Below, in pieces: positions 3,404 to 17,584 of a stretch of 17,584 nt of DNA. The position numbers and the translations under genes were made by a program. The DNA lies in NCBI RefSeq assembly GCF_901875635.1, contig NZ_CABFMN010000152.1, positions 1 to 17,584 on the forward strand, in the 5' to 3' direction. Numbering within the stretch: position 1 is the first letter of the stretch; each line of letters begins with the position of its first letter. The notes under the pieces are model-generated. The model searched no databases. It was not told the origin of the DNA and saw only the letters and a list, made by a program, of their open reading frames with translations. This stretch comes from Xylophilus ampelinus. GTDB taxonomy: Bacteria; Pseudomonadota; Gammaproteobacteria; Burkholderiales; Burkholderiaceae_C.

Positions 3404-4603
3404 TCAGCAGGCGCTCGAATCGGCCAGGCCGAGCAGCGAAGCCGCCTGTGCCGCGACCGCTCTCACCTGCTCGACCGTGGCGCCCGTGACGTTCAGGTGG
3501 CCCATCTTGCGGCCCCGGCGCGCCTCGACCTTGCCGTACAGGTGCAGGTGGGTGCCGGGCAGCGCGAGCACGCGGTCCCAGGGCGGCTCGACCTGCGCGC
3601 CCCCGCCCTGCACGAACCACAAGTCGCCCAGGATGTTGAGCATGATGGCCGGGCTGTGCTGGCGCGGCGCCACCAGCGGCAGGCCGGCCAGCGTGCGCAC
3701 CTGCAGTTCGAACTGCGACTGCTCGCAGGCGTCCAGCGTGTAGTGGCCGCTGTTGTGCGGGCGCGGCGCCATCTCGTTGACGACCAGGCTGCCGTCCTCC
3801 AGCACGAAGAACTCGACGCACAGCACGCCGACGTAGTTCAGGCCGTCTGCTATCGATTTCGTAGCTGCCACCGCCCGCTGTGCCTGGGCCGGAGGCATGT
3901 TTTGCTCATGAACCTCGGTCACGGCCAGGATGCCGCCGCGGTGCAGGTTGCGCTGCGGCGGGAAGTGCACGGACTGCCCGTCGCGCCCGCGCGCCACGAT
4001 CACCGAGCATTCCATGGCCAGCGGCAGGCGCTTCTCGAGCACGCAGGCCACGCGGCCCGAGGCCGCCCAGGCGGCGGCCAGCTCGGCGCGCGTGTGCACG
4101 GTCTGCTGGCCCTTGCCGTCGTAGCCCAGGCGGGCGGTCTTGAGGATGCCGGGCAGCAGGTCGTCGCCGACGGCGGCGAGCTGGTCCTCGGTCTCGATCA
4201 CGGCATAGGGCGCAGGCCCCACGCCCCCTTCGGCGCTGCAGCGCACGAAATGCGCCTTCTCGCGGATGCGGTCCTGCGCGATGGCGACCGCGTCGGCGGC
4301 CGGCGCCACGGGGACGTCGCCGGCCAGCGAAGCCAGGGCACCGGCGGGTACGTTCTCGAACTCGGTGGTCACCGCATCGGCCAGCCGCGACAGGCGGGCC
4401 AGGCCGTCGCCGTCCTCGTAGTCGGCGTGCACGTGGTGATGGCTCACCCGGCCGGCAGGGCTGTCCGGATCGGGATCGAGCACCGCGGTGAAGTAGCCCA
4501 TGGCCTGCGCGGCGTGCACGAACATGCGGCCCAGCTGGCCGCCGCCCATCACGCCGAGGGTGCTGCCGGGGAGCAGCACCGAAGTCACCGTGGCCGGGCT
4601 CAT
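3404..4603 (-). CDS. purK: N5-carboxyaminoimidazole ribonucleotide synthase
   Basis: PurK is an ATP-grasp enzyme that converts 5-aminoimidazole ribonucleotide, ATP and bicarbonate to N5-CAIR in de novo purine synthesis; PurE then rearranges this product. The 399-residue protein has the N-terminal GGGQLGRM loop at about 20-27. The ATP-grasp core includes GYDGKGQ, and the metal-binding end is marked by VEFF...VNEMAPRPHNSGHYT. The start at 4603 is set by a near-perfect AGGAGGT seven to eight bases before the ATG, which discards 34 further upstream codons. It lies 61 bp after purE and 20 bp before sua5, all on the minus strand, as an operon. Residues 246-252 are encoded by a 19-bp repeat also present in the thioredoxin gene. 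Confidence 0.96.
   Translation of the reverse strand: MSPATVTSVLLPGSTLGVMGGGQLGRMFVHAAQAMGYFTAVLDPDPDSPAGRVSHHHVHADYEDGDGLARLSRLADAVTTEFENVPAGALASLAGDVPVAPAADAVAIAQDRIREKAHFVRCSAEGGVGPAPYAVIETEDQLAAVGDDLLPGILKTARLGYDGKGQQTVHTRAELAAAWAASGRVACVLEKRLPLAMECSVIVARGRDGQSVHFPPQRNLHRGGILAVTEVHEQNMPPAQAQRAVAATKSIADGLNYVGVLCVEFFVLEDGSLVVNEMAPRPHNSGHYTLDACEQSQFELQVRTLAGLPLVAPRQHSPAIMLNILGDLWFVQGGGAQVEPPWDRVLALPGTHLHLYGKVEARRGRKMGHLNVTGATVEQVRAVAAQAASLLGLADSSAC
3848..3866. repeat. Interspersed 19-bp repeat, copy 1 (inside purK)
   Basis: The sequence TGCTATCGATTTCGTAGCT occurs here and, letter for letter and in the same window orientation, at 5834-5852. It is an imperfect palindrome with GCTA...TAGC arms. 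Here it is read on the antisense strand of purK and encodes part of residues 246-252 in frame. Short repeats with similar GCTAT arms are familiar from Comamonadaceae genomes, as far as I recall; this is not checked. Confidence 0.75.
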
Positions 4604-4634
4604 CGGAACACCTCCTGCCCTTGGCCTGCGGTGC

Positions 4635-8932: not shown

Positions 8933-10084
8933 TCAGTCGCCGAACAGCGGGCCGAACACACGCACCAACTCGCTCTGCCGCCGCACTCCGGTCTTGTCGA
9001 AGATCTGCCGCAACTGCGCCCGCACGGTGTGGACGGAGCGTACGTGGGCCTGGGCAATCTGCTGCGGCGAGCGGCCGCACACCAGTTGCGCGAGCACGCC
9101 ACGTTCGGCCGGTGTGAGGCCGTGGCGCTTCGCCGCCTCGTCGAAGGCTTCGGGTCCGCGCGCGGGCGTCAGGCCCTCGACGAACAGGAGCATCCGCGCC
9201 TTCGGCCACACCGTGCGGCAGGCATGGTCCTCGGGCATCGGCACCAGGCGAGCGCGGGCCGTCGCGGGCCGCGCCTGCGGCGTCGGACCGGGCAGCCACA
9301 GCAATCGCTCGGGTGCCAGTTGGCGCCGAGCCTCGTCGATGAACTGCGCCAGCGCGCTGCCGGAGCACTGGCCGATGCGAACCAGCCGGTTGCCGTGCAG
9401 TTGCAGCCAGCGCTCGTCGGCAAGCAGCCCCGACCCCGCGGCGTTGGCGTGCAGCACGCCGCCCCGGCCGTCGAGCACCCACACCGGCACCGACAGTTCG
9501 TCCAACGTCTCGGCCGCGAAGTGGGCCGCGCGCCGCGCCGTCGACAGCGCCCAATGGGCATGCACCGCCAGCTGCAGCGGGGCATGTATATCTCCTAGGG
9601 CCCGGACGTCGCCGGCACTGAACGACTCGAGCCCCGGACGCCGGTACAGCGTGACCACCGTGACAGGCAGCCCTTCGGCCTCCCGTCCCGCGTCCACGAT
9701 GAGCGTCATCAGCCGCTGAATGGCCTGCGGGCGGGCGAAGTCGTTGTAGAAGGCGGTGCGGCGCAACTCGTCCCACGGACAGGCCACCTCGCCCTGCACG
9801 CAGTAACCATCGCGAAGCGGGAGTCCGCGCCGCGCGGCCCCTAGAAACCAAGGATCCTGACTCGCCCAGTGGCGCAGGTATTCGGGCAGGGCGTCGGGAG
9901 GGAACTCGATGGACGCGTACAGCGTACGCTCGGCCGAGGGCGGCGTGGGTGTGTGCACCGCGGCCGCCGTGGCGCCGAAACGCCGGGCGAGGCGCCGCAG
10001 CACCTCGGGCCAGCGCGTGGCATCGGATGCGGCCGCGGTCGCCATGCGGACCGCCGCCACCTGTTCGCTGTCCCAAGCCGCCAT
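8933..10084 (-). CDS. LuxR-type transcriptional regulator with C-terminal helix-turn-helix
   Basis: This is a 383-residue DNA-binding regulator. The C-terminus (about 323-383) is a LuxR/NarL-type helix-turn-helix: LTPAERGVLAQLVCGRSPQQIA, then the recognition helix region SVHTVRAQLRQIFDKTG. The N-terminal part shows no phosphoreceiver domain. It looks like a sensory PAS/GAF-like region, with a segment near 210-260 (PVWVLDGRGGVLHANAAG) of PAS character; the ligand is unknown. The start at 10084 is chosen for GGAGGTG six bases upstream; 33 upstream codons are ignored. It diverges from a second regulator of the same layout and precedes the Gly-rich lipoprotein on the same strand by 134 bp. A dyad lies in each flanking intergenic region, so self-regulation and control of the lipoprotein unit are likely. 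Confidence 0.88.
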   Translation of the reverse strand: MAAWDSEQVAAVRMATAAASDATRWPEVLRRLARRFGATAAAVHTPTPPSAERTLYASIEFPPDALPEYLRHWASQDPWFLGAARRGLPLRDGYCVQGEVACPWDELRRTAFYNDFARPQAIQRLMTLIVDAGREAEGLPVTVVTLYRRPGLESFSAGDVRALGDIHAPLQLAVHAHWALSTARRAAHFAAETLDELSVPVWVLDGRGGVLHANAAGSGLLADERWLQLHGNRLVRIGQCSGSALAQFIDEARRQLAPERLLWLPGPTPQARPATARARLVPMPEDHACRTVWPKARMLLFVEGLTPARGPEAFDEAAKRHGLTPAERGVLAQLVCGRSPQQIAQAHVRSVHTVRAQLRQIFDKTGVRRQSELVRVFGPLFGD

Positions 10085-10284
10085 TGAGCACCTCCGCGGA
10101 GCGGCGCACGCCGCGCCGGGGTTGCCGCCGAGCATCGCAGTGCGCCACCGGCGTGACAAGCGCAGAGGCCGGGCCGGCCTCACTCAAACGAGTGATGCGT
10201 TGGCGGACCCGCTTGTCTAAGGTGGTTACCGGCGGGCACGGGCGATGCAACGCGCCCAATCCCAGGTCAACCGAGGACAGAGGC
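10085..10284. promoter_or_regulatory. Divergent control region between the two LuxR-type genes
   Basis: This 200-bp region separates the two regulator start codons and should carry both promoters. The only strong structure is the dyad at 10180-10195, almost central. Both gene ends have Shine-Dalgarno sequences: GGAGGTG on the minus side and GAGGACAGAGG on the plus side. No convincing consensus -35/-10 pair was found for either direction, which fits activator-dependent promoters. Confidence 0.5.
10180..10195. promoter_or_regulatory. Dyad, candidate LuxR operator (site B)
   Basis: TCACTC-AAAC-GAGTGA is a 6-bp inverted repeat with the same AAAC spacer as site A, followed by the same GATGCG flank. 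It lies 96-111 bp upstream of one regulator start and 90-105 bp upstream of the other. Arm pairs 3 and 4 from the centre differ from site A on both sides in a compensatory way, so symmetry is kept. Function inferred. Confidence 0.55.
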
Positions 10285-11382
10285 ATGCGAGCGGACGACG
10301 CATCGGGATCAGACCCCGCCTACCTGCGCGCGCGCGACGCGGTGCGCCACCTGTGCGATCCCGTGCCACCCTGGGACGACATCCTTGAGGGGGCGTGTCA
10401 CATCCTCGATGGGGACAGTGCGACGCTGATCATGCTCGACGTCGAGGGAACACTGCTTTCGTTTCAGCAGCGCCATGGTGACCCGGCAGCCGGGCGCGAG
10501 TATGTCGAACACTACTTCGCTCAGGACATCGTCGTGCCCGTTGCCGCCCATGCGCCGGCCGGCTCGTGGCTCGACACCGGCGAGCTTTTTTCTTCTGCCT
10601 TTCTGTCATGCAATGCCTTTTATGTGGACTTCATGTGCCGACATCGCATGCGCCAATTCGTCGCCTGCATCTTGGCAGACAGCCCTCAACGCCGCGGCGG
10701 CATCACTGTGCAACGCAGCCAAGTGCGTGCACCTTCACGTGCAGCTCGACAAAAGACACACGCGCGCCTCTTCACCGACGCTCTGCAGCACGGCCTGGCC
10801 GAACGCGAGCAGCGTGCGCAGCGCTGGATCCACGACGCGGCCGAGGCGCTTGCGCATTTCGACGAGGCACTGTGCCTGGTCACGCCGGCCGGGCTGGTGG
10901 TCCATTTGTCGCCGCTGGCGCAGGCGCGACTCTCCGGCGGGGCCGGCCGCCTCCAGATGCGTGCGGGCCGACTGCATCACACCGACGCGCGGGTCCAGGG
11001 CCGGCTGCTCGCCGCGCTGGCACAGGCCGCGCACTGCCATCGGCCGATCGCGTTGATGCTGCCCGACGGCACCAGCTGCGAACTCGCGCGCGCGCACGAT
11101 GCCCTGAGCATCGGCCGCGAAATCCTGGTGCTGTTGCGCCTGACCCGGCAGCCCGACGCCGCGCCGCTGCCCGACCCGGCGACGCTCCAGCAGGTCTTTG
11201 CGCTGACGGCAGCCGAAGCCCGTGTGTTGCACGCGCTGGCCAGCGGCCGGCGAGCCCACGAGGTCGCCCAGGCCCACGGGGTGTCCTACCACACAGTGCG
11301 CAGCCAGATCACGGCGCTGATGCAGAAGATGGACTGCGCGCGCCAGGTTGACCTCGTGCGTAAGGCGTTGCGTGGCGCCTGA
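10285..11382 (+). CDS. LuxR-type transcriptional regulator, paralogue of the divergent neighbour
   Basis: This is a 365-residue regulator with a C-terminal LuxR/NarL-type helix-turn-helix at about 307-365 (LTAAEARVLHALASGRRAHEVA, then VSYHTVRSQITALMQKM). The N-terminal 200 residues match the neighbour's layout (YFAQDIVVPVAAH against HWASQDPWFLGAA; a PAS-like LCLVTPAGLVVHLSPLAQ segment), so the two arose by duplication. It has no receiver domain and no acyl-homoserine-lactone-domain signature that I can see. The start at 10285 has GAGGACAGAGG just upstream. A stretch at about 10584-10620 is T-rich, with codon choice unlike the rest of the window. The phospholipase gene follows 105 bp later on the same strand, so it is the most obvious target besides the dyad sites. 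Confidence 0.87.
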   Translation: MRADDASGSDPAYLRARDAVRHLCDPVPPWDDILEGACHILDGDSATLIMLDVEGTLLSFQQRHGDPAAGREYVEHYFAQDIVVPVAAHAPAGSWLDTGELFSSAFLSCNAFYVDFMCRHRMRQFVACILADSPQRRGGITVQRSQVRAPSRAARQKTHARLFTDALQHGLAEREQRAQRWIHDAAEALAHFDEALCLVTPAGLVVHLSPLAQARLSGGAGRLQMRAGRLHHTDARVQGRLLAALAQAAHCHRPIALMLPDGTSCELARAHDALSIGREILVLLRLTRQPDAAPLPDPATLQQVFALTAAEARVLHALASGRRAHEVAQAHGVSYHTVRSQITALMQKMDCARQVDLVRKALRGA

Positions 11383-13635: not shown

Positions 13636-13654
13636 CATCCCGACGAGGCCCCCG

Positions 13655-16600
13655 ATGCCCACCTTGCCCCCGGTCACCTCGCGCACGCTGCGCGGCATCA
13701 CCGACCTGACGCTGGCCGCACCGCTCAAGCGCGGCCTGGTCGCCGCCCCCGACGCCCGCGGCCACGAGACGCGCCTCATCACGCTGCTGCGCAGCCTGAA
13801 CACGCTGCGCTACGCCTCGTTGGAGGTCGACTTGGCGCCGGCGATCCCCGACATGATCGACCGCGTGCGCGCGCTGCAGTCCTTTCGCCTTGCGCTGACG
13901 GACGGTCCCGACGGCAGCCGCCAGTTGCTGCTGGCCGTGAGCTTCGACGGCGGCTGGGAGCCCTACATGCGCCGCGTGTGGCGCGACCTCGGGCCGCTGC
14001 TGGACGTGATCTTCTGCAACTGCGAGGGCTACCTGCTGGCGCGCACGCACCCCTATGCGGAGTACGCACGCTGGGTGCGCAGTGCACAGCGCAACACCGA
14101 GTTCTTCTACACCGCCAGCCCGGTCACCGTGAACGACCTGCACTGGCTGCGCGAGCAGCAGCGCACCCCGGCACCGCCGCAGCCACAGGCGAGCAACGCC
14201 ACGCTGGCCGCGCAGGCACTGCCGGGCCTCACGGCCCTGTACCGCCTCACGGAGTTCTACCCGCCCGGCACGCCCGATGGCGATTGCCTGCTGCACGCCG
14301 CGCACCACCTGCTGCTTCCGCTGTGGGAGCGAATGAGCGCGACGCCGCCTGCCCTTCCGCCCTCGGCCATCCCCTGCCGCACGCCCACCGAGGAGGCCGC
14401 CGTCGCCTGGTTCATGACGAAGGTGCAGGCGACGCCGGCCACGCCCGCGGGCACCTGCCCGGCCCACTGGGACTGGCCGCCGCCGGATGCGCAGGCCGGC
14501 ATCGTCAAGGCGCTGCCGGCCACGCCGACGCATGGGGCCCTGCTGCTCATCGAGTGCGACGACGCGAAGGCCATCGCCCGGCTGGTGCGGCAACTCGATC
14601 CCTCCACGCTCGGGGCGCGCGCCGCGCAGGCACACGCCGGGCCGTGGCGCAACCTGTTCTTCACGCTGGCCGGCCTGAAAAAGGCGCGCGTGCCCGATGG
14701 CCTGCTGGCCTGCCTGCCGGCGGAATTCCTCGAAGGCATGGAGGCACGCGCAGCGGTGCTGGGCGACCTGGAGGCGGACCACCCGCAACACTGGGCGCTG
14801 CCCGAACGCAACTGGCCGCCGGGCCACCCGCCCGCGACGCCGGCGCGCGTGGCGCTGTCGAGCGTGCATGCGGTGGTGCAGATCCTGGTCGCCGACGCGG
14901 CGTCGGCGCCGGGGTGGAAGCCGCTGGACAGCGCGCACCCGGCCCATCCGCACATCCTCGCCTTCGAGCGCCGGCTGATGCCGGGTGCGCGCATCCTGTC
15001 GGTGCAGCCGCTGCACCGGAACATCGACGCGCACGGCCAGGCGCGCGAGCACTTCGGCTTCGCCGACGGTCTGAGCAATCCCATGCATCCGCGTGACCAG
15101 CCGGCCGCCAGCCCGCGGGCTGGCGACTGGGACCGCTGGGCGCTCGGCGACTACCTGCTCGGCTACGGCAACAGCCACGACGACCCGCCGCTGCAGGGCC
15201 GCTTCTGGACCGACAGCACCTTCCTCGTCGTGCGCAAGCTGCGGCAGGACGTGGACGCGCTGCACGCGATGGTCGGCGGGCCGCCCGCGCATTCGGACCT
15301 CGCGGCGCGGATGGTCGGCCGGCGGCAGGACGGCAGCAACCTGATCGACGGCACGCTGGGGAACGCCTTCGACTATGCGAGCGACCCGGCCGGCGCGCGA
15401 TGCCCACTGCATGCGCATGTGCGCCGCGCCAATCCACGCGGCCTTCGGCCGGATCTGCAGGTGCTGCCGCGCATCCTGCGGCGTGGCATGTCCTATGGCC
15501 CGCCGCACAGTCCCGACACGGCACAGGACGAACGCGGCGTCGTCTTCATGGCCTACAACGCGTCCATCGCCGAACAGTTCGAGCTGATCCAGTCCTGGCT
15601 GTCGGGCGGCAACAGCGGGGGCGACGGCAGCTATTCGGGCCAGCGCGACCCCATCTTCGCCCGCCCGCGCCAGGGCGACCGCGACAGCTTCGTCTTCGGA
15701 CCGCCCCCGCGGCCGGCCCCGCTGCCACTGCCCGCCGACGCCCCGCGTCCGGTGGCGCTGCAATGGGGGCTGTACCTCTTCGTGCCCTCCGTGCCGGCGC
15801 TGGAGGACATCGCGCGCTTCGCCGCCGAGGCTGGGTGCCCGGCAGCGACCGCGCCCGACCCGGCGGCGGCCCAGCGCGCTGCAGAGGCCAAGAAGGGCGC
15901 CATCGTCATCGCGAAACTGAGGGCGGTGGAGTCGGCGCTCGGCCTGGACGCTGCGCGCGAGCAATGGAAGCTGGTGCTCGAAGACCTGGGCGCGCGGCAG
16001 AACGGCACCAGCCAGTGGCTGTGGACGGCCGTGCGCGAGCTGTACGACGGGGTGCTGCGAACGCCCTACGGCGTGCTGGTGGGTCGCCGCGACCGGGTGA
16101 TGGACGTGTTCGGCGACGACCGCAACTTCTCGGCCACCGGCTACTGCCCGCGCATGGCCTCGTCCTTCGGCGCCATCTACCTCGGGATGGACCAGGGGCC
16201 CGACTACCTCGCGCAGTCGACCGTGCCCAACGAAGCGATCATGGCCGTGACGCGGCGCCGGGCCTTCGATGCGACGTTCACCGAGACCGAAGCCCTGCTG
16301 GCTGGATGGCGGACACGCGCCGACGCGGCCGGTTTCTCGTTCGACGTGAAGGACCTCGTCGACGCGGTGCTGGCCCGCATCTGCACGGCATTTTTCGGCC
16401 TGCCCGAGGCTGGCGGCGCCATGCGCAGCGGCGGCTGGCAGGCGCGCAGCGGCCAGGCCGACGGCGGGCAGCCGAGTTGCCCGGGCCATTTCGGGGCGCC
16501 CTCGCGCTACATGTTCCAGCCCAACCCGGGCGAGGAGGCCGAGCGCCAGGGGCAGGAACACGGCAAGGCGCTGCGCGACTACGTCAACGCGCGCCTGAAC

Positions 16601-17200
16601 GGCTCCGGCGCCGACCTGCAGTCGACCAACGCCAGCGTCATCGGCGCGAAGCTGCGCGGCATCGACAAAGCGCGCTACGCCAGCACCCTCATCGGCATCA
16701 TGATGGGCTTCCTGCCCACGGTGGACGGCAACCTGCGCAGTGCACTCTACGAATGGGTCAACGATCGCTCGCTGTGGGAGCTGCAGATGGCCAGCGCCGC
16801 GCGCGGCCGCCCCAGGCAGCCGGGGCGCCCGCCACGGCACCCCTTCGCGGTGGCGCGGGCGGTGATCGAGCCCGCCCTGCGACGGACGATGCAGCTGCGC
16901 CCCGTGCCGGAACTGGTCTGGCGCACCGCGACGACGCGGCGGACGCTGGGCGGCGTGGAGGTGGCGCCGGGCGAGCGCATCGTGGTGGGCATCGTCTCGG
17001 CCATGCAGCAGAACCTGCGGGAGGGCAGCCCCGATCTGTGGCCGGTGTTCGGCGGCCGAAGGGCCGGCGAGCAGCACCCCACGCATGCCTGCCCCGGCTA
17101 CGAGATGGCGATGGGCGTGATGCTCGGCGTGCTGGCCGGGCTGCTGGGCGCCGAGTTGCGGCCGTCGCTGTCGCCGACGGTGCTGCGGCTGATGCCCTGA
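13655..17200 (+). CDS. DyP-type haem peroxidase fused to a cytochrome P450
   Basis: This 1181-residue protein joins two haem-enzyme domains. Residues 1-255 form a domain with FDGGWEPYMRRVWRDLG and FCNCEGY motifs, perhaps a degenerate ferredoxin-like peroxidase half. The DyP domain (about 275-720) has GFADG with catalytic Asp471, the proximal haem ligand His588 in HVRRANPR, and RGVVFMAYNASIAEQFE with Arg627 as likely distal arginine. From about 750 a P450 domain of usual size follows: YGVLVGRRDRVMDVFGDDRNFS, an I-helix-like GFLPT with Thr1022, and the cysteine loop HACPG with Cys1146 as thiolate ligand. No signal peptide is seen, so it is cytosolic or membrane-associated through its partner. 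The start has GAGG six bases upstream. By analogy with fungal Ppo oxygenases it may oxidise and rearrange fatty acids freed by the phospholipase; this is inference. Confidence 0.85.
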   Translation: MPTLPPVTSRTLRGITDLTLAAPLKRGLVAAPDARGHETRLITLLRSLNTLRYASLEVDLAPAIPDMIDRVRALQSFRLALTDGPDGSRQLLLAVSFDGGWEPYMRRVWRDLGPLLDVIFCNCEGYLLARTHPYAEYARWVRSAQRNTEFFYTASPVTVNDLHWLREQQRTPAPPQPQASNATLAAQALPGLTALYRLTEFYPPGTPDGDCLLHAAHHLLLPLWERMSATPPALPPSAIPCRTPTEEAAVAWFMTKVQATPATPAGTCPAHWDWPPPDAQAGIVKALPATPTHGALLLIECDDAKAIARLVRQLDPSTLGARAAQAHAGPWRNLFFTLAGLKKARVPDGLLACLPAEFLEGMEARAAVLGDLEADHPQHWALPERNWPPGHPPATPARVALSSVHAVVQILVADAASAPGWKPLDSAHPAHPHILAFERRLMPGARILSVQPLHRNIDAHGQAREHFGFADGLSNPMHPRDQPAASPRAGDWDRWALGDYLLGYGNSHDDPPLQGRFWTDSTFLVVRKLRQDVDALHAMVGGPPAHSDLAARMVGRRQDGSNLIDGTLGNAFDYASDPAGARCPLHAHVRRANPRGLRPDLQVLPRILRRGMSYGPPHSPDTAQDERGVVFMAYNASIAEQFELIQSWLSGGNSGGDGSYSGQRDPIFARPRQGDRDSFVFGPPPRPAPLPLPADAPRPVALQWGLYLFVPSVPALEDIARFAAEAGCPAATAPDPAAAQRAAEAKKGAIVIAKLRAVESALGLDAAREQWKLVLEDLGARQNGTSQWLWTAVRELYDGVLRTPYGVLVGRRDRVMDVFGDDRNFSATGYCPRMASSFGAIYLGMDQGPDYLAQSTVPNEAIMAVTRRRAFDATFTETEALLAGWRTRADAAGFSFDVKDLVDAVLARICTAFFGLPEAGGAMRSGGWQARSGQADGGQPSCPGHFGAPSRYMFQPNPGEEAERQGQEHGKALRDYVNARLNGSGADLQSTNASVIGAKLRGIDKARYASTLIGIMMGFLPTVDGNLRSALYEWVNDRSLWELQMASAARGRPRQPGRPPRHPFAVARAVIEPALRRTMQLRPVPELVWRTATTRRTLGGVEVAPGERIVVGIVSAMQQNLREGSPDLWPVFGGRRAGEQHPTHACPGYEMAMGVMLGVLAGLLGAELRPSLSPTVLRLMP

Positions 17201-17316: not shown

Positions 17317-17584
17317 TCAGGCGCCGGCACGCAGCGCGGCCGCCTGGGCGAGGTGCCAGTCCATGCGAAGGCGCTCGAAGCCTTCGGTGGCGGCGTCGAG
17401 GTGGCGCTGCGCTTCGCCGCAGTCGTCGCGGCGCAGCGCCAGCCGTGCGCGCAGCAGGTGGTTGGACGCCGCCTCGTGCGGCGACTGTCGTAGCGCCGCC
17501 GCGTGGTCGGCCAGTCGCAGGTGGCGCGCCAGGGCGTCGGCGTCGCCGGCCTCGGCAGCCAGCCCGGCCAGCGCGCGCCCGGCC
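17317..17584 (-). CDS. C-terminal part of a TPR-like protein, 5' end outside the window
   Basis: Only the last 88 codons are present; the rest lies beyond the right edge. The sequence is Ala/Leu/Arg-rich helical repeat (DHAAALRQSPHEAASNHLLR, then ALRRDDCGEAQRHLDAATEG and FERLRMDWHLAQAAALRAGA). This resembles the C-terminal tetratricopeptide region of large AAA-type signalling ATPases, such as adenylate-cyclase-like or AfsR/MalT-like regulators, in which FxxLxMxWHLxxA is a common ending. The full domain set cannot be judged from this fragment. It converges with the fusion gene and has a terminator candidate downstream. Confidence 0.65.
   Translation of the reverse strand, partial: AGRALAGLAAEAGDADALARHLRLADHAAALRQSPHEAASNHLLRARLALRRDDCGEAQRHLDAATEGFERLRMDWHLAQAAALRAGA

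Follow-up and report, generated by a model that had tools for sequence, protein, structure and literature searches.

A DyP-type peroxidase joined to a P450-fold domain in Xylophilus ampelinus and its relatives, with lipase and cyclase neighbours

Introduction

Fungal Ppo or psi factor oxygenases and linoleate diol synthases (LDS; CYP6001-6005) are described as single chains of a haem peroxidase-type N-terminal half and a self-sufficient cytochrome P450 C-terminal half, with an HxC motif in the cysteine pocket (PMC13049297, PMC5919972). Oomycete CYP5619 is likewise a P450 joined to a haem peroxidase/dioxygenase (PMC5919972). In bacteria, the 10S-DOX and 7,10-diol synthase of Pseudomonas aeruginosa (PA2077/PA2078) form a haem-peroxidase-derived pair that oxygenates fatty acids via the diol synthase pathway (PMC4496055). 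Here we describe a gene for a DyP-type peroxidase and a P450-fold domain in one polypeptide, found in a stretch of 17,584 nucleotides (nt) of Xylophilus ampelinus (contig NZ_CABFMN010000152.1), hereafter the window. An earlier note, made from the letters of the window, had proposed this fusion and knew of no characterised bacterial example. In agreement, literature searches aimed at DyP-P450 fusions found none in titles and abstract openings (larger result sets being covered in part), and a term search within one DyP review and two papers on alpha+beta-barrel haem proteins returned no mention of P450. In the available part of a review of the haem peroxidase superfamilies, P450 fusion is mentioned for the fungal LDS alone (PMC4420034).

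Results and discussion

The proposal that both enzymes share one polypeptide was confirmed: the gene is a single open reading frame (ORF) with full-length homologues, and both folds are seen in structure models (AF2, without haem). No signal sequence was found by eye, and the product is probably a cytoplasmic two-haem enzyme. A protein search returned 386 relatives, and 115 of the 120 listed are 1100-1300 amino acids (aa) long. The genome survey of this architecture that the earlier note had suggested was made on one-genome-per-species contigs and gave 69 loci, mostly in Burkholderiales genera, with two in Bradyrhizobium and some in metagenome-assembled genomes of other or vaguer name. None of the 69 has matches in more than one frame; both halves, including the Cys motif of the P450 half, share one frame in 63, and the other six end at contig ends. 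This survey refutes a frameshift or assembly error that merged two genes, an explanation to which we now give practically no weight.

The DyP half is recognised by PF20628, which scores 34.4 bits against a cut-off of 20 and is the sole Pfam family on the fusion at expectation values (E) up to 1, while TIGR01413 scores 92.2 bits, under its cut-off of 100.5. The model of this half has the alpha+beta barrel fold of DyPs. An N-terminal half of the COX/animal peroxidase type is absent, and the earlier note was right to set the protein apart from the fungal Ppo/LDS on this point. Asp471 and His588, both singled out in that note, and Arg609 are each invariant in all 88 rows of a first alignment (A1; the window and 87 of the 120 listed relatives of 386, biased to close relatives). 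A wider set (75 rows, several incomplete: the window, all 69 loci, four triple fusions described below and L102) gives, among rows with any residue at the position, Asp471 in 74/74, His588 in 73/73 and Arg609 in 73/73. With Arg609, which we take from the DyP literature to be the distal Arg, the GxxDG Asp, proximal His and distal Arg of the superfamily are all present. Among solved structures, those nearest to residues 271-724 in both sequence and fold are the DyP of Deinococcus radiodurans (8re2/8re3) and other DyPs; they have the same Asp/Arg/His site, but are stand-alone chains of 442-445 residues without the extra N-terminal module and P450 of the fusion.

The C-terminal half has a P450 fold in its model, the match (778-1180) lying inside residues 750-1181, where the earlier note had placed it. 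Of the two profile checks proposed there, that for DyP succeeded and that for P450 failed, PF00067 matching none of 61 P450 domains at E up to 0.1. The predicted thiolate Cys1146 in HACPG, which follows the (R/H)xCxG pattern, is invariant in 88/88 rows of A1 and 69/69 of the wider set. His1144 and Arg1090 are invariant too (Arg1090 in 70/70 of the wider set), and Arg1090 is presumed to be the haem-propionate Arg. Two hallmarks of ordinary P450s are lost. At the acid position of the helix-I acid-alcohol pair the fusion has Pro1021, and this column holds Pro in 88/88 rows of A1 and Pro 68 with Ala 2 in the wider set, so that the acid is absent from all 70 rows. At the ExxR position the fusion reads RTMQ, and Glu and Arg occur together in one of 70 rows, that of L033.

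By analogy, the P450 half could nevertheless be functional, more probably with peroxide as its oxidant, because P450 peroxygenases are also without the acid-alcohol pair of helix I (PMC10988616) and CYP157 of Streptomyces is also without the ExxR Arg (PMC3599690). CYP157 keeps the ExxR Glu, whereas the fusion family has usually lost both residues, and the available part of the CYP157 paper mentions no fusion (PMC3599690). The CYP152 peroxygenases (OleT), in which the pair is missing as the acid is in the fusion, perform peroxide-driven fatty acid chemistry (PMC10988616). Compared by description, not by alignment, the fusion family may differ from CYP152 in having Pro or Ala at the acid column in place of the helix-I Arg that binds the carboxylate. 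To our knowledge, the solved CYP152 enzymes are not fused to a peroxidase. On the other hand, the P450 half might be an ordinary O2/NAD(P)H monooxygenase with ferredoxins encoded elsewhere, the DyP half removing leaked H2O2. The helix-I Thr is indeed kept (Thr 62, Ser 7 of 70), and ordinary P450s occur in 16 of 21 relatives of the host group, so that redox partners can be expected there. We regard this as improbable, given the loss of the helix-I acid in every row and the absence of any redox-partner family among the 25 commonest of the 152 Pfam families of 98 neighbour proteins (30 of the 69 loci).

Table 1. Features of the window. A2 comprises the window plus 60 of the 63 loci whose P450 part is complete (all but L002, L029 and L051).
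Feature	Position (nt)	Strand	Basis or remark
LuxR-type regulator (GerE domain)	8933..10183	-	
LuxR-type regulator (GerE domain)	9949..11382	+	
Patatin-like lipase, 715 aa	11488..13635	+	PF01734 E 1.8e-10; ends 19 nt before fusion start
DyP-P450 fusion gene, 1181 aa	13655..17200	+	no internal stop
N-terminal module, residues 1-270	13655..14464	+	single ferredoxin-like (dimeric alpha+beta barrel type) domain, then helices
DyP-type peroxidase domain, residues 271-724	14465..15826	+	profile, sequence and fold matches
Asp471 of GxxDG, distal catalytic Asp	15065..15067	+	conservation in alignments
His588, proximal haem ligand	15416..15418	+	conservation in alignments
Arg609, distal Arg by spacing from His588	15479..15481	+	conservation in alignments
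Linker 725-737 between DyP and P450 halves	15827..15865	+	predicted local distance difference test (pLDDT) <50
P450 domain, residues 765-1181 as aligned in A2	15947..17197	+	
Pro1021-Thr1022, helix I	16715..16720	+	acid column placed by hhalign
Arg1077-Gln1080 (RTMQ) at ExxR position, helix K	16883..16894	+	hhalign; PDB profile alignment
HACPG with thiolate Cys1146	17084..17098	+	conservation in alignments
C-terminal end of convergent class III cyclase-AAA gene	17317..17584	-	rest beyond window

The N-terminal module contains the motif DGGWEPYMR at residues 98-106. Separately, database proteins with the P450 half only exist (P0140, P0142, P0143 and P0145; 413-434 aa), one of them on a 105-kb contig, and these may be split genes, fragments or start-site errors.

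The patatin-like lipase of the window has GSSSG at residue 78 and DGG at 455, with hydrophobic stretches at 170-203 and 219-251 between them (motifs, hydropathy). A patatin lies directly upstream of the fusion in 10 of the 69 loci, with 23-86 nt between the end of its ORF and the match. Eight of these loci belong to the branch of the window, of which Variovorax soli and Bradyrhizobium are also members; the other two (L028, L041) sit on a deep branch apart from it in our tree, which is quick, midpoint-rooted and long-branched. The scripted scans relied on a gene caller and on lipase, cyclase and Crp profiles of our own making. Moreover, four genomes (L070, L079, L080, L081), one of them from another class, encode a triple chain in which an SGNH/GDSL domain follows DyP and P450 at the C-terminus, with PF13472 at E 5e-3 to 1e-11 and visible GDS, GND and HP blocks. 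The SGNH extension is also found in four database proteins (P0120 at full length, P0168 and P0179 without the DyP part, and P0190), and a related GDSL gene lies directly upstream of the fusion in L033. Together, the patatin, the fused SGNH domain and the adjoining GDSL gene, each present in some members of the family, suggest that the substrate is an acyl lipid. In L068, of the Roseateles/Pelomonas branch, a GDSL-type gene akin to the fused hydrolase domain (3723-4616, +) stands about 5.4 kb upstream of the fusion. The two divergent LuxR-type regulators upstream of the window patatin have close copies in L005 only, among the 69 loci.

The downstream neighbour is more widely kept. In the window, a gene for a class III cyclase-AAA protein meets the fusion tail to tail, and over 88 aa its visible end shares 97% identity with the corresponding end of its L001 counterpart. 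The encoded proteins are about 1000 aa long; in all seven scanned (including L001, L011 and L047) a class III cyclase domain and an AAA_16 domain pass the Pfam cut-offs, and in four of the seven TPR repeats do so too. The cyclase gene is downstream of the fusion in 55 of the 69 loci, a count that includes one weak match (L064, 76 bits), and within 500 nt in 46; it is convergent in 53 and codirectional in the two Bradyrhizobium loci, where patatin, fusion and cyclase thus form a row. In each of eight carrier genomes, hand-picked and including the source of the query, the cyclase has a single strong homologue (E <1e-70), which neighbours the fusion (at a distance of 2.1 kb in one genome), and the next best matches have E 2.7e-24 or worse. 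Among 72 loci searched for Crp/Fnr, eight have such a gene; it adjoins the cyclase in L001-L004, L006, L041 and L028 (divergent in L028) and the fusion in L081. In L001, a close relative of the window, the cyclase domain (gene at 13654-17067, -) reads GIAKHL by eye where L011 has NIAARL; it seems to be without the catalytic-core Asn/Arg and may be a non-catalytic sensor.

These neighbours bear on three alternatives. In an anti-phage or stress system, the cyclase would make a nucleotide signal, the patatin would be the effector and the haem enzyme a damage sensor; PADLOC models for PycC do hit the cyclase (best E 5.3e-12 in L001 and 5.9e-13 in L007), and there is a match between the Crp neighbour and the cyclic-nucleotide-binding part of Pycsar effectors (E 1.1e-14). 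However, the matched domains are common to class III cyclases and cyclic-nucleotide-binding proteins at large, and the fusion, the window patatin and one triple fusion match no PADLOC model, which makes this explanation far-fetched. Oxidation of xenobiotics, dyes or aromatics, as many DyPs perform in vitro, would suit the DyP fold and the relatives from Xenophilus azovorans and from a Variovorax sp. WS11 plasmid; we find it very improbable in view of the lipase and cyclase linkage. Finally, both halves might destroy lipid hydroperoxides formed by membrane damage, the patatin excising oxidised acyl chains and no signal being produced. Such detoxification is consistent with two folds able to consume peroxides, with the adjoining patatin and with the lack of a prominent biosynthetic family among the 25 commonest of the 98 neighbour proteins. 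We hold it to be unlikely, though to be kept in view, as the dedicated cyclase, accompanied by Crp/Fnr in some loci, would be more at home in a specialised pathway than in repair at large.

That the gene is rare across the phylum likewise favours a specialised pathway over detoxification. Matches were found in 35 of the 399 genomes of the nearest genome's family, 32 of them clear (E 2.6e-74 or better, frames of at least 1003 aa) and one more cut by a contig end; the other two are weak, with frames of 389 and 417 aa, and the latter (L072) is an ordinary P450. Across the phylum, 4 of 398 genomes match and 2 are true (G112, and G001, which is cut by a contig end), and in the class of G112 there are 3 matches in 385 genomes, 2 of them clear; the weak P450 matches G024, G630 and G941 were called ordinary by score and frame length. 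Some transfer between classes is likely, since Bradyrhizobium clusters with Variovorax soli in the tree. The fusion gene can also be plasmid-borne, as the Variovorax relative (L042) lies on pVarWS11_iso. On the plasmid pDB-1 of Sphingopyxis sp. DBS4 (L104, 8761-11190), the DyP-P450 ORF has only 809 aa and starts directly after a Tn3 transposase gene, so that the N-terminal part is missing; a cyclase-AAA gene of the same kind and, next to it, a Crp/Fnr gene lie beside this copy as well. A Rhizobium sp. ACO-34A plasmid carries a relative of the DyP half only (L105, 9034-10308), annotated as hypothetical, with an alpha/beta hydrolase adjoining and a catalase gene further on; it is a possible stand-alone cousin of the DyP half.

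We consider peroxide-based chemistry on a lipid with two haems, its output or use coupled to a cyclic nucleotide, the most likely function. DyPs are known to consume peroxide, and the DyP half with its intact Asp/Arg/His site would activate it. The P450 half would take peroxide or a lipid hydroperoxide without a redox partner, most likely as a peroxygenase or hydroperoxide isomerase. The substrate would probably be a fatty acid or other acyl lipid, freed by the neighbouring patatin or, in other lineages, by the fused SGNH hydrolase, and the cyclase-AAA(-TPR) protein, with Crp/Fnr in some loci, would be a sensor of the product or a controller of its use. The hydroperoxide chemistry that the earlier note had suggested thus gains indirect support from the P450 half without helix-I acid and from the lipases that some members of the family have adjoining or fused. 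Substrate channelling between the haems, also suggested there, may take place. That note did not cover the N-terminal module, the link to lipases, the degenerate ExxR, the cyclase partner or the triple fusions.

Several points weigh against this account. The absent helix-I acid is no proof of peroxide use, and the Thr next to it is mostly kept. A patatin was not seen upstream in 59 of the 69 loci, at least four of which (L004, L023, L045, L049) have less than 600 nt upstream; the Roseateles/Pelomonas branch is without an adjacent lipase by two lipase profiles, and the PF13472 cut-off is passed in one of the four triple fusions (L081). The cyclase is 1.4-4.8 kb away in 9 loci and missing in 7 of the 62 with room for it (7 further loci have none). 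Moreover, we know of no DyP that forms fatty-acid hydroperoxides, and the role of the DyP half is the least secure part: with H2O2 it may make a substrate radical that traps O2, or it may reduce a hydroperoxide or control the peroxide supply of the P450 half. Taken jointly, the two-haem chain, the peroxide-activating DyP half, the peroxide-driven P450 half, the acyl-lipid substrate and the tie to cyclic-nucleotide signalling make a reading that we judge to be evenly poised. A more specific version, in which the lipase (patatin or fused SGNH domain) frees a fatty acid, DyP-P450 makes a specific oxidised lipid from it in two haem steps, the cyclase-AAA(-TPR) protein senses this lipid and raises a cyclic nucleotide, and Crp/Fnr reads that nucleotide, would be a bacterial module to make and sense oxylipins; we put it forward as a tentative and rather doubtful idea.

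Comparison with known systems

The Pfam P450 model is blind to the P450 half: the listed full-length relatives, where named, are DyP or EfeB-type peroxidases or 'hypothetical', and one source gives a few P450-only fragments the name cytochrome P450. If the P450 half needs no redox partner, it would be a compact P450 from bacteria that runs on peroxide, and would help to show how far ExxR and the helix-I acid are needed. If the links to lipase and cyclase hold, bacterial oxylipin signalling, for which few enzymes are known, would be open to experiment.

Among the described systems, the bacterial fusion probably works most like the fungal dioxygenase-P450 fusions, with which it shares the layout and the HxC motif of the Cys pocket. 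The fungal enzymes are also of similar length. The bacterial fusion differs from them in the loss of ExxR and the helix-I acid, in its bacterial hosts and in its lipase and cyclase partners. The fungal N-terminal half belongs to the peroxidase-cyclooxygenase superfamily, whereas the bacterial one is of the DyP type, a superfamily of independent origin (PMC4420034); because of this DyP half, the fusion is not a member of the Ppo/LDS family. Oomycete CYP5619, unlike the bacterial fusion, carries its P450 as the N-terminal half and retains EXXR (PMC5919972), and PA2077/PA2078 are two separate proteins of the di-haem cytochrome c peroxidase type, without P450 (PMC4496055). A haem peroxidase has thus been joined to a P450 once more, now via a peroxidase of another fold, and the fusion with its neighbours suggests a bacterial counterpart of the fungal two-haem enzymes for fatty-acid hormones. 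If the oxylipin module were true, it would be an independent invention of those hormone enzymes from an unrelated peroxidase fold.

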